This document shows, piece by piece, positions 52,737 through 59,294 of a DNA stretch of 64,000 nucleotides. The first letter of the stretch is position 1, and every line of letters starts with the position of its first letter. Made by a program: the position numbers and the translations under genes. Location: positions 124,001 through 188,000 of the forward strand of contig NZ_MVDI01000004.1 in assembly GCF_002939305.1 (NCBI RefSeq), read 5' to 3'. Source of the stretch: Chroococcidiopsis sp. TS-821 (GTDB lineage Bacteria > Cyanobacteriota > Cyanobacteriia > Cyanobacteriales > Chroococcidiopsidaceae). Below the pieces are notes generated by a model, which made no database searches, was not told the origin of the DNA, and saw nothing but the letters and a program-made list of their open reading frames with translations.

Positions 52737-54812
52737 TTATGCGTTCCCTTTACTTTTAGCGATAATTGCTTCAGCCACGTTGCGAGGTACTTCCTCGTAG
52801 TTACTAAACTCCATTGTGAAGATACCCCGACCTTGGGTTTTCGAGCGAATATCTGTAGCATAGCCGAACATTTCTGCTAATGGAACTTTAGCAGTCACTT
52901 TCGCAATGCCTTGCTCAGATCCCATGCCTTCAATTTGACCGCGACGGGAGTTGAGGTCTCCCATAACGTCTCCTAGGAAGTTTTCCGGGACTTCTACCTC
53001 TACTTTCATCATAGGTTCTAACAGCACGGGTGAAGCTTTCATAACAGCTTCTTTCATCGCCATTGAACCAGCGATTTTAAACGCCATTTCCGACGAGTCA
53101 ACTTCGTGGTAAGAACCATCTACCAAAGTCGCTTTGACATCAATAACTGGATATCCAGCTAAGACACCTGATTCACAGGTTTCTTTCATCCCTTGTTCTA
53201 CAGGCGGAATGTATTCTTTAGGTACAGCACCACCTACAATCTTAGAGACGAACTCAAACCCTGTTCCTGGTTCACCTGGTTCCAGCTCGACAACAACATG
53301 ACCGTATTGACCTTTACCGCCACTTTGACGGATAAATTTGCCTTCGGCTTTCACAGGTTTACGCACAGTTTCGCGATAGGCTACTTGCGGCGCACCTACG
53401 TTTGCTTCTACCTTGAATTCTCGTAACATGCGGTCTACAAGGATTTCTAGGTGCAACTCTCCCATGCCTGAAATAACCGTTTGATTCGTTTCCGGGTCGA
53501 CGCTGACGCGGAAGGTTGGATCTTCTTCTGACAAGGATTGTAGTGCTTTCGATAGCTTATCCATGTCTTGCTTGGTTTTTGGTTCGACCGCTACCGAGAT
53601 TACTGGCTCTGGAATATATAGAGACTCTAAGATAACTGGAGCATTTTCATCGCAAAGCGTGTCACCTGTAAAGGTATCCTTAAGTCCTAGCGCTGCTCCT
53701 AAATCTCCGGCACGCAGTTCGTCCACGTCAGTTCGCTCGTCAGCTTTCAATACCACCAGGCGCGATACCCGCTCTTTCTTACCCTTCGTGGAGTTCATGA
53801 CGTAGCTACCTTTCTTAAGAACTCCAGAGTAAACGCGGATAAAGGTCAGACGTCCGTAGGGATCGGCCATAATTTTGAAAGCCAAAGCCGAGAAAGGTTC
53901 GTCATCACTTGCTCGACGTTCAACGGTTTCGCCCGATGGTAGCGTACCTTGAATTGCTGGTACGTCAATTGGTGCTGGCAAATAATCGACAACTGCGTCA
54001 AGTAGTAGTTGGACGCCTTTATTTTTAAAAGCCGAACCACACAGTACCGGTACAATAGTCCCTGCAATTGTTCCCTGACGTAAGCCTTGACGAATTTCTG
54101 CTTCGGTGAGTTCTTCCCCTTCTAGATACTTTTCGATTAATGCTTCGTCAGTTTCTGCGACGGCTTCAATCAGCTTCATGCGGTACTCGGCTGCTGCTTC
54201 CTGCATCTCCGCAGGAATCTCGGTTTCTTGGATATCTGTTCCTTTATCGTTTGTGTAAATAAAGGCGCGCATCCGCACAAGGTCTACAAGTCCCTGAAAC
54301 GTATCTTCGCTACCGATTGGCAGTTGTATGGGTACAGCATTGGCACGTAAGCGATCGCGGATTTGGTTATAAACTTTGTAAAAGTTTGCCCCAGTTCGAT
54401 CCATTTTGTTGATGAAGGCAATTCTCGGAACTTTATACCGGTCTGCCTGTCTCCATACCGTTTCTGACTGGGGTTGTACTCCACCAACCGAGCAGAACAC
54501 GGCGATTACGCCGTCTAATACTCGCATTGAACGCTCTACTTCAATTGTGAAGTCTACGTGCCCAGGAGTATCAATAATGTTAATTTGGTGATCTTTCCAG
54601 CTTGTTGTAATCGCAGCTGCGGTAATCGTAATTCCACGTTCCCGCTCTTGCTCCATCCAGTCAGTGACTGCTGTTCCTTCGTGAACTTCACCAATTTTGT
54701 GAACAATACCGGAATAAAAGAGAATTCGCTCTGTTGTTGTTGTTTTGCCCGCATCAATGTGGGCCGCAATCCCGATATTGCGTACTTTTTCCAGCGGGAC
54801 TGTACGTGCCAC
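52737..54812 (-). CDS. fusA: Elongation factor G
   Basis: 691 residues. P-loop [14 protein letters not shown], switch [20 protein letters not shown] and NKMD; domain II and domains III-V continue to the C-terminal [16 protein letters not shown]. It catalyses ribosomal translocation. Order rpsL-rpsG-fusA-tuf is the conserved str operon, and the gene starts 116 bases after rpsG. Confidence 0.99.
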
Positions 54813-54928
54813 AGTTACCTCCTTAAGTTGTGTTGCCGCAGGTATCTTTAATATTACTATCTGTTAAGATTCTATACGTTTAGGGGAACCCGCTCTATGT
54901 TTGTGCTGATTTCCCCTCTAGTATCAAT

Positions 54929-55399
54929 CTAGTATCGATAGTGAGCAAACGCTTTGTTTGCTTCTGCCATACGATGAGTTTCTTCTCGCTTACGAATGGC
55001 ACTTCCTGTCTCGTTTGCCGCGTCCATTAATTCACTAGCAAGTTTGCTTGCCATCGAGCGACCCGAACGTTGTCTTGCGTACTGAATCAACCAGCGGAGT
55101 GCTAACGTCGTTCCTCGATCTGCACGTACTTCCATTGGTACTTGGTATGTTGCACCTCCAACACGACGGGCTTTTACTTCGACTAGCGGAGTTGCATTAC
55201 GTACCGCTCTTTCAAAAGTTTCGATAGGATCGCCCCCAGTTCGTTCTTCAATAGTTTTCATAGCATCATAGATGATTCTTGCAGCTAGCGATTTCTTACC
55301 ATTACGCATCACCCGCCGCATCATCATACTAATGAGGCGACTGTTATATACTGAATCTGGGGGAACTGGACGTTTTTGAATAACAGTACGACGAGACAT
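54929..55399 (-). CDS. rpsG: 30S ribosomal protein S7
   Basis: 156 residues beginning [20 protein letters not shown]; conserved [49 protein letters not shown]-type sequence is present throughout (read in pieces). S7 binds 16S rRNA in the head domain. Second gene of the str operon. In E. coli it represses the operon translationally; whether it does here is not visible. Confidence 0.98.
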
Positions 55400-55579
55400 A
55401 CGTAAGCCTTTAAATTAAACTACTGGGCAACAACGACATAATTTCTATAGAGCGGTCTCCTGCTGTGTCACTTTTGGCACAGCTCTAAACGCGACTAGCC
55501 ATCATTCTAGTCTTTAAGCTGAATATGTTAATTTTGCAAGCTGTCTATCGAACACGCCTTCACTTAATATAATGAAGCG

Positions 55580-55653
55580 CAGGCATTACCTTTGCCACTT
55601 TAACATTTTATTTAAGAATTGTAGCAAGCGTGAGATCTGCTACAGTTTTTTTT
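55580..55653 (+). ncRNA. Candidate small RNA opposing the str operon
   Basis: The 265-base rpsL-rpsG spacer carries a clear plus-strand intrinsic terminator and, about 50 bases before it, TATAAT at 55568-55573 as a possible -10 element. A transcript from near 55580 to the T-tract would be about 74 bases and lie opposite the operon mRNA. No good -35 is seen at normal spacing. The terminator is the solid part; the RNA itself is inference. Confidence 0.35.
55620..55653 (+). terminator. Plus-strand intrinsic terminator in the rpsL-rpsG spacer
   Basis: TGTAGCA (55620-55626) pairs with TGCTACA (55638-55644), and the stem can extend three more pairs outward; eight T follow at 55646-55653. It points away from the direction of the str operon, and no plus-strand gene lies just upstream. 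Confidence 0.75.
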
Positions 55654-55664
55654 GGCAAACTGTG

Positions 55665-56036
55665 TTACTTGGGACGCTTTGTACCATACTTGGAGCGACC
55701 TTGTTTGCGGTCTTTAACTCCGGCAGTGTCTAAAGTTCCTCGAATAATGTGGTATCGCACTCCAGGTAAGTCTTTGACACGACCGCCACGAATCATGACG
55801 ACCGAGTGTTCTTGTAAATTGTGACCAATTCCAGGAATGTATGCTGTGACTTCAAATCCAGAGGTTAAGCGTACCCTAGCTACCTTACGCAGGGCAGAGT
55901 TCGGCTTCTTGGGTGTTGTGGTATACACGCGCGTGCAGACACCTCTACGCTGTGGGCATTCCTTCAGCGCTGGTGATTTTGTTTTCTTACTTGTGAGTTG
56001 ACGTTCGCTACGAATGAGTTGCTGTATAGTTGGCAT
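55665..56036 (-). CDS. rpsL: 30S ribosomal protein S12
   Basis: 123 residues with the invariant [18 protein letters not shown] loop and [31 protein letters not shown] in the second half. It monitors codon-anticodon pairing at the decoding centre. Lys in KKPN is the wild-type residue linked to streptomycin sensitivity. First gene of the str cluster; the promoter should be in 56037-56226. Confidence 0.98.
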
Positions 56037-56226
56037 GGGTTACAGCACGTAATTTTGCTTACTGCTCTTAGTTTTAACAAATCCTGAGTATAACAAACTC
56101 ATGCGTAGCGTGTCAAATTAGTAGTAGCAAAGGGCAGAGGTCAGAGAATACAGTTGAGATTTGTTGCCCAAGGGTTGAATTACGGAATGCGTTGATGTTT
56201 CTTGCTTGATAGTTGCTTATCAATCG

Positions 56227-56577
56227 CTACTCTTGCGAAGTAGAGGATTCTGATGCCACAGAAAAGGAGTTACCACAGCTACAAGTTGCGATCGCTTGCG
56301 GATTATGAAAGCGAAAACCTCCGCCCATCAAATCTTCCGAATAATCAAGGAGGAGGTCACGAACATAATTAACACTTTGCGCATCGACAACGACCGTAAT
56401 TCCGCTACAGTTATAAACGCGATCGCTTGAGGTAATGCCGGTATCAAACTCCATGTTATACAGCAAGTTAGAGCAACCGCCAGTGCACACTTTTAGCCGC
56501 AAAAAGACGTTTCGATCTTGCTGCTTCGAGCGCAGGCGTTGGATTTCCTTAGCTGCAGATGTACTGAGACGAACCAT
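56227..56577 (-). CDS. A-type iron-sulfur assembly protein (IscA/HesB family)
   Basis: 116 residues from ATG 56577 (frame open to 56634). Cysteines at 31, 35, 99 and 101; Cys35 with the C-terminal Cys99-Ser-Cys101 is the three-cysteine A-type pattern. The fold part VFLRLKVCTGGCSNLLYNM and DLMGGGFRFHNP fit the family. It should store or deliver Fe-S clusters or iron; which client it serves is not evident. Lies upstream of the str cluster on the same strand. Confidence 0.9.
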   Translation of the reverse strand: MVRLSTSAAKEIQRLRSKQQDRNVFLRLKVCTGGCSNLLYNMEFDTGITSSDRVYNCSGITVVVDAQSVNYVRDLLLDYSEDLMGGGFRFHNPQAIATCSCGNSFSVASESSTSQE

Positions 56578-56707
56578 GAATGCATTGTAGAGTAGGGAAT
56601 GAACTCGTGCCTTGACTGAGCTAGCTAGACACAAAAGTTAATTTATAACGTTTTATTAGTTTTCCTACTATGCATCTTAACTGTATTTTTTTCCCTACTC
56701 TTAATTT

Positions 56708-57127
56708 TTACTTGGTGCGAGAGTAGTCGTCTTGGAAGCGGACTATATCGTCTTCTCCCAAGTACTCGCCATTTTGGACTTCAATAATGATCAGGGGAAT
56801 TACACCAGGATTTTCTAAGCGGTGGTTTGTACACTGGGGGACATAGGTAGATTGATTATTTGTCAGTAGAATTTCAGCATCGCCACAAGTTACTTTTGCT
56901 GTCCCTGAAACAACTATCCAATGTTCGCTGCGGTGATGATGCATTTGTAGGCTCAGACGATGCCCTGGCTTAACTTCTATTCGCTTAATTTTGTAGCCGC
57001 GTCCTTCTTCGAGAACTGTAAAAGATCCCCATGGTCTGAGTTCAGTAGCTGCAACGCCTTTGTGACCTACAGATGGCGGTAAAGGCAGTGTTGTAGGCTC
57101 TTGGGTAGTTTCTTGAGCCTGGACCAT
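56708..57127 (-). CDS. Cupin (mannose-6-phosphate isomerase type)
   Basis: 139 residues from ATG 57127, with AAGGAG about eight bases upstream. A single cupin barrel: RPWGSFTVLEEGRGYKIKRIEV, PGHRLSLQMHHHRSEHWIVVSGTA (metal-binding His cluster with Glu) and STYVPQCTNHRLENPG. This matches the C-terminal mannose-6-phosphate isomerase domain of bifunctional type II enzymes, here stand-alone. It probably interconverts mannose- and fructose-6-phosphate for polysaccharide precursors. Confidence 0.88.
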   Translation of the reverse strand: MVQAQETTQEPTTLPLPPSVGHKGVAATELRPWGSFTVLEEGRGYKIKRIEVKPGHRLSLQMHHHRSEHWIVVSGTAKVTCGDAEILLTNNQSTYVPQCTNHRLENPGVIPLIIIEVQNGEYLGEDDIVRFQDDYSRTK

Positions 57128-57395
57128 ACACTTTTCTCCTTGTAACAAAACGACTTATAGCAATACAGAAAGCTGATTTGGCGCTTAAGATACCCAAACT
57201 TTGGCAAATATAGCTCAAGATAGCAAACACCTGCTAGCAACTGACACTACAAAATGCACTTGTTTCATATGTTTATAACAACTCTTCATGAGTTGTGCGA
57301 TATGTTTAAGCAATCTTTAACTTCAGCCGAAATTCAGGTTTGGTAATTGGGAGTTAGTCAATGGTCAGCATAAGAAATTTTTATTCTCTAATACT

Positions 57396-59294
57396 TTAGG
57401 TGTGCGGTTCGAGAAAAATTGCCAATCCGTTGTGGATGCGGGCGGCGGTACGGGGAGAGCGATCGAGTAGCTGTCCTCCTAGGAATAGACTAGTTGAGCT
57501 ACCACCATCGAGATTTAAAGCATCAACACAGCCTAGATGTTGCATGATTTGGGCAATTTCTGTCAAGCTTGGACCTACGCCATTCGCACGGTTGTGGACA
57601 GCAGCAATAAGAAGATTGCCTGTTGGCGTTACGCCGATCGCACTGCGCGCGGCTTTTTGACGGCTAAAAGCTTCACTAAAGCCTTCAGCTTGCGCGTTTA
57701 ACACAATTTGACGATTTTGTAATAGAAGCGGTCCACCTCCTAAGATATGGGGGTAACTGGCAAAGTCAGCTGGATTCGTAGCATTTTCGATGCGGATGAT
57801 AGTGCCTACAGGTAGTAAGCTAGCAACTTGCGGACTTGCCCGTAGCGCGAGTAAGAAGCCGTTAGCAGGAATTGGAAATGAGGTTTCACCTGCAACACCG
57901 CCAGGGATTTGCCCAGTGATTTGATTATTCTGCACAACGACGATAATTTCGTTGTCAATAAGAGGTGTGTAGGTAGCGCCCCAAGTGTTTGTATAGTGGG
58001 CAATACCAGGCTGAACATAGCCACTATTAAAAGTAACAACCGGCAAACGCTGTCCGGAAGAGGTAATAATCGTTTCTTGAAGTTGTAGCCGTCCGAATCT
58101 AAACTTACCAGCGTCATTCCAAGCGATCGCGCCTCGGTTGAGAATGGGACCAGATAGCCATTGTCCGTCACGTCGAATTGCTCCCAAGGGTAGCTGATTT
58201 TTGCGATTAAAAAAACCGCCGTTAATTGCTGCAGCGGCGTTTAATTGTTGCGCAATTGTCAGAATGGGTGCTGTCCCAGTCAGCGAGCTTGTCGTGCTAG
58301 AAATTGGTTTGAGTGCGAGTCCTGTTGTGCGCGGATTGACTTCGAGTAAAACGACAGGAAAGCGCGAATCGCCTAATGTGACAAATTGCTGTCGCCAACG
58401 CACGCCAGGTGCCCACTGTATATCGCGTTCTACCATCGCATCCGGTCGTAAATCGATAACTAACCGGTTGGGATTAGGTAAAGTACTCGGGCGCGGGGAT
58501 AAGCCAGCAGGAACACTCAGGCGAATTGTTGTTAAGTTGGGTGCGCTTTCGAGTTGAAGAACTGAAGTTTGTTTTTTGTCTTGAGCGCTGGCGAGTTGTT
58601 CAGCTAAAGTAGGTTGGAAGCGTTCAACTAGCGATCGCTCAGGTGTTGCATCAATCGTAATTAACCATTCTTGATTAGGCGGTTGGTCGTCATCATCTGT
58701 TGGTGTTGGCGATTTTGGTTGCACAGGAATTGGTTGTGAGGTCACTTGCCAGAAGGCTGGGCGATCCAAATCAATGACAAGGCGATCGCCCCATGCTTGT
58801 TTACCTTGACGAATATTTTTGATCGTTGCAGGGGGTGTACTGATGTGTAACGTATTGCCATTCGTTTGAATTTGCCAGCCCAACTTTGTCGCTAATTGCG
58901 TAATGTCGAGATAGCGATAACTGTTGTGATGCCAAGCATCTAGTGTAAATGCTGAGGTTGTTGGTTCAGAAAACCATTGCACGGATTGCTTGGTGACATC
59001 TTTCGTATTCAATAACTCTATGCCCAGTAGCTGCATCAGCCCAGCATCGCTAATCGCTGTTGCCATTCCGGCTTTAGTCGGCTGCTGCCACTGACTCCAA
59101 GCGCCTGGTAGCGTGCGATGATTGAGTGCAATTTGCGTACCTGTAGCGAGTAAACGCCGTGCAGACTTTTGACTTGTTAGTATCGGTGTGGCAGCAGACT
59201 TGGAAAATGGCGACGACTGCTGCGCGTTACTATTAATAGTTGTTGTTAGCCACAATGCCATTGTCAAGAGCGAAACTAAGACACTGCGCGGCAT
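57396..59294 (-). CDS. Exported phosphodiester glycosidase (NAGPA-domain) protein
   Basis: 632 residues from ATG 59294, where a signal peptide begins; the frame continues upstream to GTG 59477, but that part has no exported character. The N-terminal half (about 50-290) contains a copper-amine-oxidase-N-like or AMIN-like region (RLVIDLDRPAFWQV). The C-terminal half (about 330-630) is the NAGPA fold: AAAINGGFFNRKNQLPLGAIRRDG, a middle block IENATNPADF, and HLGCVDALNLDGGSSTSLFL near the end. The domain cleaves GlcNAc-phosphodiester in the mammalian family; in cyanobacteria the envelope substrate is unknown. Confidence 0.82.
   Translation of the reverse strand: MPRSVLVSLLTMALWLTTTINSNAQQSSPFSKSAATPILTSQKSARRLLATGTQIALNHRTLPGAWSQWQQPTKAGMATAISDAGLMQLLGIELLNTKDVTKQSVQWFSEPTTSAFTLDAWHHNSYRYLDITQLATKLGWQIQTNGNTLHISTPPATIKNIRQGKQAWGDRLVIDLDRPAFWQVTSQPIPVQPKSPTPTDDDDQPPNQEWLITIDATPERSLVERFQPTLAEQLASAQDKKQTSVLQLESAPNLTTIRLSVPAGLSPRPSTLPNPNRLVIDLRPDAMVERDIQWAPGVRWRQQFVTLGDSRFPVVLLEVNPRTTGLALKPISSTTSSLTGTAPILTIAQQLNAAAAINGGFFNRKNQLPLGAIRRDGQWLSGPILNRGAIAWNDAGKFRFGRLQLQETIITSSGQRLPVVTFNSGYVQPGIAHYTNTWGATYTPLIDNEIIVVVQNNQITGQIPGGVAGETSFPIPANGFLLALRASPQVASLLPVGTIIRIENATNPADFASYPHILGGGPLLLQNRQIVLNAQAEGFSEAFSRQKAARSAIGVTPTGNLLIAAVHNRANGVGPSLTEIAQIMQHLGCVDALNLDGGSSTSLFLGGQLLDRSPRTAARIHNGLAIFLEPHT

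Follow-up and report, generated by a model that had tools for sequence, protein, structure and literature searches.

Between rpsL and rpsG of Chroococcidiopsis sp. TS-821 lies a perfect stem followed by eight T, which has the form of an intrinsic terminator but points against the operon in which it sits. The question raised by this locus is which strand the hairpin serves. It could end transcripts that run toward rpsL from the rpsG side, it could close a small antisense RNA, or it could be part of the operon mRNA.

The minus strand of the window (the whole stretch of 64,000 nucleotides that was analyzed) encodes a cyanobacterial str operon, with the rpsL, rpsG, fusA, tufA, and rpsJ frames in this order. 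These gene names are a reading of the translated open reading frames, made without a family search. The spacer between rpsL and rpsG is 265 bp long. The two genes and the features from which the question arises are as follows.

55665-56036, minus strand: rpsL, from the translated open reading frame
54929-55399, minus strand: rpsG, from the translated open reading frame
55620-55644, read on the minus (mRNA) strand: hairpin 1, on the plus strand TGTAGCA-N11-TGCTACA, with seven perfect pairs
55646-55653, plus strand: run of eight T after the stem and one G, which is an A-rich linker in the mRNA
55568-55573, plus strand: TATAAT, in the loop (55565-55575) of a second hairpin, absent from all five relatives

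An earlier note on this DNA had described a stem of seven pairs with eight T in the spacer, facing against the operon, and a TATAAT about 50 bases upstream of it on the plus strand. Both observations are confirmed, with the stem and T run at 55620-55653 and 46 nt between the TATAAT and the stem. Because all of the operon frames are on the minus strand, the stem and T run are oriented against the operon. In the mRNA, the first pair of hairpin 1 follows the rpsL stop codon after 20 nt. The seven-pair stem contains three G-C pairs and is moderately G+C-rich. When a perfect stem of seven pairs with at least three G-C pairs, a loop of 3-12, and at least seven T of eight is sought on both strands, the window contains a single case, whereas 30 dinucleotide shuffles averaged 0.13. 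Shuffling of the spacer alone gave such a combination in 2 of 2000 trials, which places it above chance. The segment 55610-55660 folds with -12.8 kcal/mol (z -2.32; 5 of 200 shuffles were equally good).

A promoter scan of 54000-57500 listed two candidates that bear on the transcription of the spacer.

56087-56116, minus strand: likely rpsL promoter, TTGACA-18-TATACT, 11 of 12 consensus matches
55504-55531, minus strand: possible rpsG promoter, TTAACA-16-TAGAAT, 10 of 12 consensus matches

The first of these is a strong candidate, with a TG preceding its -10 element. By eye, it is kept with small changes in all six genomes compared (TTGACA with TATACT, or TACACT in L005). Because this likely promoter is conserved in 6/6 genomes, the spacer should be transcribed within the operon. 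The rpsG candidate sits downstream of the spacer structure in the same genus; by eye, it reads TTAATA..TAGAAT in two genomes of that genus and cannot be made out clearly in the sister genus. Over 55400-55455 (minus strand), the six genomes strongly conserve the final part of the rpsG leader as ATGTCGTTGTTGCCCA..AAAGGCTTACGT-ATG, whereas on average the 90 nt preceding rpsG are unstructured. The GAAGGCTTACGTATG portion of this leader is also found in L008 and L014, which belong to other genera.

Conservation and folding of the spacer

A search for the region in 40 genomes, that of TS-821 included, matched 38; loci were taken from 30 of these, and the other eight were left out. Six spacers were aligned, three from the same genus (TS-821 included) and three from the sister genus. 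The following elements were delimited.

55599-55647, minus strand: conserved block comprising hairpin 1, its loop, and its 3' flank, 44 of 49 columns invariant in six genomes
55593-55605, minus strand: middle short stem, TGTTA..TGGCA in the mRNA sense, a weak element of five pairs, 30/30 cells paired
55555-55585, minus strand: hairpin 2, with covarying pairs and seven wobble cells on the mRNA strand vs one on the other

In the rest of the spacer, 90 of 216 columns are invariant in the same six genomes. Measured on four of the nine cross-genus pairs, identity between the genera is 92-96% in the block; the remainder of the spacer reaches 61-70%, and the four-fold sites of rpsL and rpsG 49-64%. 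Conservation continues for about 20 nt beyond hairpin 1, downstream in the mRNA sense and on the opposite side from the T run. All eight pairs of hairpin 1 are formed in the six genomes (48/48 cells).

The arms of the inverted repeat are invariant over seven pairs in the six genomes, as would be expected if a regulator protein bound the palindrome in the DNA. This explanation is highly improbable: the loop is conserved to the same degree as the two arms, about 440 bp separate the site from the likely rpsL promoter upstream of it, and with up to three mismatches allowed the genome contains the hairpin only once. The single copy also led to the rejection of a dispersed repeat.

A covariance model of the region, searched at E 0.1 against 291 genomes of the order, recovered only its six source genomes; the filters were the stricter ones used for many genomes. 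Among 46 loci, the same model found the six source genomes and a weak match at the same place in L008, of a further genus (E 0.0025). It also gave three more matches with E from 0.47 to 5.9, two of which were the opposite strand of the same element. Alignments to which L008 was added (A2 and A3) were left out of all counts. At the curated Rfam thresholds the spacer had no match, and the only one in the window was a tRNA elsewhere; five Rfam matches in the spacer region were each far below the cut-off. In L010, L011, and L013, which belong to another genus, AATCTCAGCCTTACTAC was seen by eye in place of the AATCTCACGCTTGCTAC of the relatives of TS-821, and a different 5' arm pairs with it, as if the arms had been shifted by compensatory change.

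A hairpin and T run in a single genome do not alone tell the functional strand. In hairpin 2, four pairs, one of them the outermost, have changed on both sides, giving six double-change cells. This number was reached by 1 of 500 shuffles, and controls with slid partners gave 0-3. The covariation involves few events, and four double-change pairs appeared in 48 of 500 shuffles and further pair types in 213 of 500. Across these six related genomes, hairpin 2 thus keeps its pairing on the mRNA strand by compensatory change, with modest support. In the middle stem, the alternation of U-G and U-A fits the minus strand only (seven wobble cells vs none), a count that is biased because this stem was predicted on the mRNA strand. 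The variable core pair of hairpin 1 is G-U on the mRNA strand in TS-821 and A-U in the others, and an outer pair varies in the opposite way. Because hairpin 1 is nearly invariant, it says little about the strand.

Alignment-based folding of the spacer moderately favors the mRNA strand, whereas single-sequence folding does not. For the six genomes, the predicted consensus fold has a z of -7.6 with a covariation bonus on the mRNA strand and -4.9 with a slight covariation penalty on the opposite strand; neither fold was equaled by any of 200 column shuffles. Three other small alignments from the family gave z values of -7.0 on the mRNA strand vs -6.3 on the other (g6, five genomes, with a covariation penalty on both strands), -4.9 vs -1.4 (g2, three genomes), and -2.9 vs 0.5 (g4, two genomes, with an equal covariation term on both). 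Of 37 loci folded as single sequences, 21 had the lower z of the first 90 nt after rpsL on the mRNA strand; the 16 with the lower z on the opposite strand include L001-L004, four of the six genomes that bear the element.

Readings of the plus strand

The earlier note had also suggested that the TATAAT and the T run might define a short RNA antisense to the rpsG leader. Such an RNA, of about 70 nt, would run from the TATAAT near 55568 to the T run. The TATAAT and the terminator-like end are in the right order and at the right distance, and in L003 a plus-strand TATACT is found at a different place, 85 nt ahead of the hairpin's 3' arm. However, the promoter scan of 54000-57500 did not list the TATAAT at 55568, so that it is without a -35 element of the required quality. 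On the plus strand, the window contains the hexamer six times, and 202 of 2000 shuffled spacers contain it, which is not above chance. It is missing from the plus strand of the spacer in the five closest relatives, and in TS-821 it forms part of the loop of hairpin 2, whose pairs covary on the other strand. An Rfam L20 leader match at this place on the plus strand was rejected, its score of 23.6 bits being far below the cut-off of 58.7 (E 0.017). The TATAAT was rejected as a promoter because of its absence from all five relatives and its frequency in shuffled spacers. A small RNA driven by it is unlikely, and the full reading, with a transcript from the TATAAT to the T run, has very little probability. 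The earlier note had named conservation in related genomes as one check on hairpin and promoter; the hairpin is kept in 6/6 genomes of two genera and the TATAAT in none of the five relatives.

The other suggestion, that the hairpin blocks antisense reading into rpsL, fared better. It would make the hairpin an antisense-facing intrinsic terminator, which stops plus-strand transcripts from the rpsG side before they reach rpsL. The sequence form of such a terminator is present on the plus strand (seven pairs, three G-C pairs, and eight T after one base), and its occurrence above chance is in favor of this function. The tail contains eight T of nine in TS-821 and seven of nine in the five relatives, so that the perfect stem is joined to a T-rich tail throughout the two genera; by comparison, 9-mers with seven or eight T number 33 of 1636 on the plus strand of the six spacers. 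Among the other family members with a hairpin after rpsL, the tail has at most six T of nine in 12/12. Because it is found in 6/6 genomes of the two genera vs 0/12 other family members, the T-rich antisense tail is a real feature of the two genera. In addition, the predicted energy of hairpin 1 is -7.4 kcal/mol sense and -6.6 kcal/mol antisense in TS-821, compared with -7.7 and -9.6 kcal/mol, respectively, in the other five genomes. The antisense hairpin is the more stable one in five of the six genomes, which also keep the T-rich tail, and this counts against an element of the mRNA. Likewise, four of the six genomes have their lower single-sequence z on the plus strand, which fits a terminator there.

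Several observations oppose this terminator. None of the plus-strand open reading frames of at least 80 aa between 50255 and 59477 is gene-like when read by eye, and because of this there is no obvious transcript to stop. The T run and the 20 conserved nt flank the hairpin on opposite sides, the mRNA strand is indicated by hairpin 2 and by the alignments, and the 12 other family members lack the tail. The idea that the hairpin blocks antisense reading survives as a minority reading, for which the T-rich tail is the main evidence, and an antisense-facing terminator is on balance unlikely, though well ahead of the small RNA.

Structure after rpsL in other cyanobacteria

The hairpin after rpsL is a wider feature than the T-rich antisense tail, which within the family is confined to two genera. 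From 80 further loci, only L044-L059 were used (16 loci, assigned to the cyanobacteria by title or by neighbors in the list); L060-L123, among them four Gastranaerophilales, were left out. Several of the loci are from near-identical sister species and are not independent. In L026 and L028 the rpsG start was set on a non-start codon, and L028 was kept in the folds, tail counts, and small alignments. Folds of 90 nt were made for 37 of 46 loci, the other nine having spacers that were too short. The first 90 nt after rpsL are on average better folded than their shuffles, with a mean z of -2.26 on the mRNA strand and -1.71 on the other. The corresponding means are -0.21 and -0.53 for the last 90 nt before rpsG, which show no such excess, and -0.98 and -0.63 for a control, the 90 nt after rpsG (44 loci). 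In L044 and L045, a long near-perfect hairpin on CGATTAATCG starts at the second or fourth base past the rpsL stop codon, and both loci also have strong structure downstream of rpsG (z -4.9 and -4.1). The spacers of L053-L059, loci whose titles mostly name Synechococcus or Prochlorococcus, measure only 16-71 nt, which is too short for such a structure.

An ordinary terminator of rpsL was considered on the sense strand and rejected. Automatic choice of hairpins in 36 folded loci, with six sense and six antisense tails unscorable, gave a U tail (at least six of eight) in 0/30 on the mRNA strand and 2/30 on the other. The count was repeated on hand-chosen stems because the automatic choice sometimes missed hairpin 1. 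These stems were picked from the folds of 18 of 19 family genomes (G018 had no match), and the sense-side tail had at most five T of nine in 18/18. Because there is no U tail on the sense side, the hairpin is not an ordinary rpsL terminator.

Proposed function and comparison with known systems

Taken together, the most likely function is that of an mRNA structure that either sets a boundary between rpsL and rpsG-fusA-tufA or regulates the one relative to the others. In its specific form, which is put forward tentatively and at somewhat less than an even chance, hairpin 1 belongs, as one arm, to a structured stretch of the str operon mRNA between the two genes, after the rpsL stop, and this stretch acts as a boundary. 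What the comparison shows is the sequence conservation, the pairing, a covariation in hairpin 2 in agreement with the mRNA strand, and the absence of a sense U tail. The structured stretch would be transcribed on the minus strand with the operon, directly after the rpsL stop codon, and would take on its boundary role after transcription. It might protect the rpsL mRNA against 3'-5' decay at its 3' end or define that end; alternatively, it might guide cleavage between rpsL and rpsG. In either case, the level of rpsL could be kept different from that of rpsG-fusA-tufA. Because the loop and flank are conserved in two genera, their sequence suggests that a protein or another RNA may recognize them as well. 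Besides the antisense stability of hairpin 1, the recognizable sequence in only 6 of 291 genomes of the order speaks against an mRNA element.

A more elaborate proposal, which we regard as rather improbable, is that of a two-genus conserved RNA element, without an Rfam match, within a sequence-diverse set of structures after rpsL. It would set the ratio of S12 to S7, EF-G, and EF-Tu by means of a ligand other than a simple 16S mimic, with its A-rich 5' side doubling as an antisense terminator.

The locus bears on how cyanobacteria, which are without Rho, end their transcripts and balance the genes of ribosomal-protein operons. A conserved structure after rpsL without a sense U tail offers a defined site at which transcript ending and gene balance can be tested. 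The literature search found no transcript data for the TS-821 rpsL-rpsG spacer, and rps12, rpsL, and rpsG are all unnamed in the main text of PMC3219970. In S. elongatus, only 22% of transcription units are reported to end with canonical intrinsic terminator features, and strong upstream structure accompanies only 75 of the 163 defined 3' ends that have no U tract (PMC13289151); the latter figure speaks against a boundary structure in the mRNA.

Autogenous control by S7 is suggested by analogy with the best-known precedent. In the E. coli str operon, S7 is described as binding the rpsL-rpsG spacer and repressing rpsG and the genes behind it (PMC10931766). If S7 (or S12) bound the spacer structure of TS-821, it could repress rpsG and the following genes in the same way. 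The resemblance is in the same spacer of the same operon and in structured mRNA between rpsL and rpsG, and both the position and the structure on the mRNA strand fit. However, the structure here adjoins the rpsL stop, with about 155 nt between the end of its conserved part and the rpsG start codon. In addition, PMC10931766 describes the E. coli structure as not obviously conserved in other species. Likeness to the S7 region of the genomes' own 16S rRNA was not above shuffles for the first 130 nt in 6/6 genomes, with 103 to 506 of 1000 shuffles aligning locally as well. For the last 80 nt, the number was 15 of 1000 in G007 and 54 to 934 of 1000 in the other five. Spacer and 16S rRNA shared four to eight 8-mers per genome, with about six expected. 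The sequence comparison did not support mimicry of 16S rRNA for S7, 11 of the 12 alignments being unremarkable and one low (15/1000), and autogenous control of this kind appears doubtful. In Anacystis nidulans, a similar case in the spacer, said to be structured, is credited to Meng et al. 1989 in PMC10931766. The two have in common a cyanobacterial str operon with a spacer described as structured; no sequence-level 16S likeness was found in TS-821.

With regard to termination and stability, the plus-strand hairpin and U-rich tail resemble an intrinsic (Rho-independent) terminator, but they point against the operon, have no known plus-strand transcript, and keep the tail in only two genera within the family. 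The REP-like hairpins that stabilize 3' ends, as described in PMC13289151, share with this element the position after a coding region and the lack of a sense U tail. REP elements are repeated, whereas the element here is single copy and its loop is conserved in sequence. Overall, the spacer feature, which lacks an Rfam match at the thresholds, is a narrow new example of the known structured spacers of ribosomal-protein operons.
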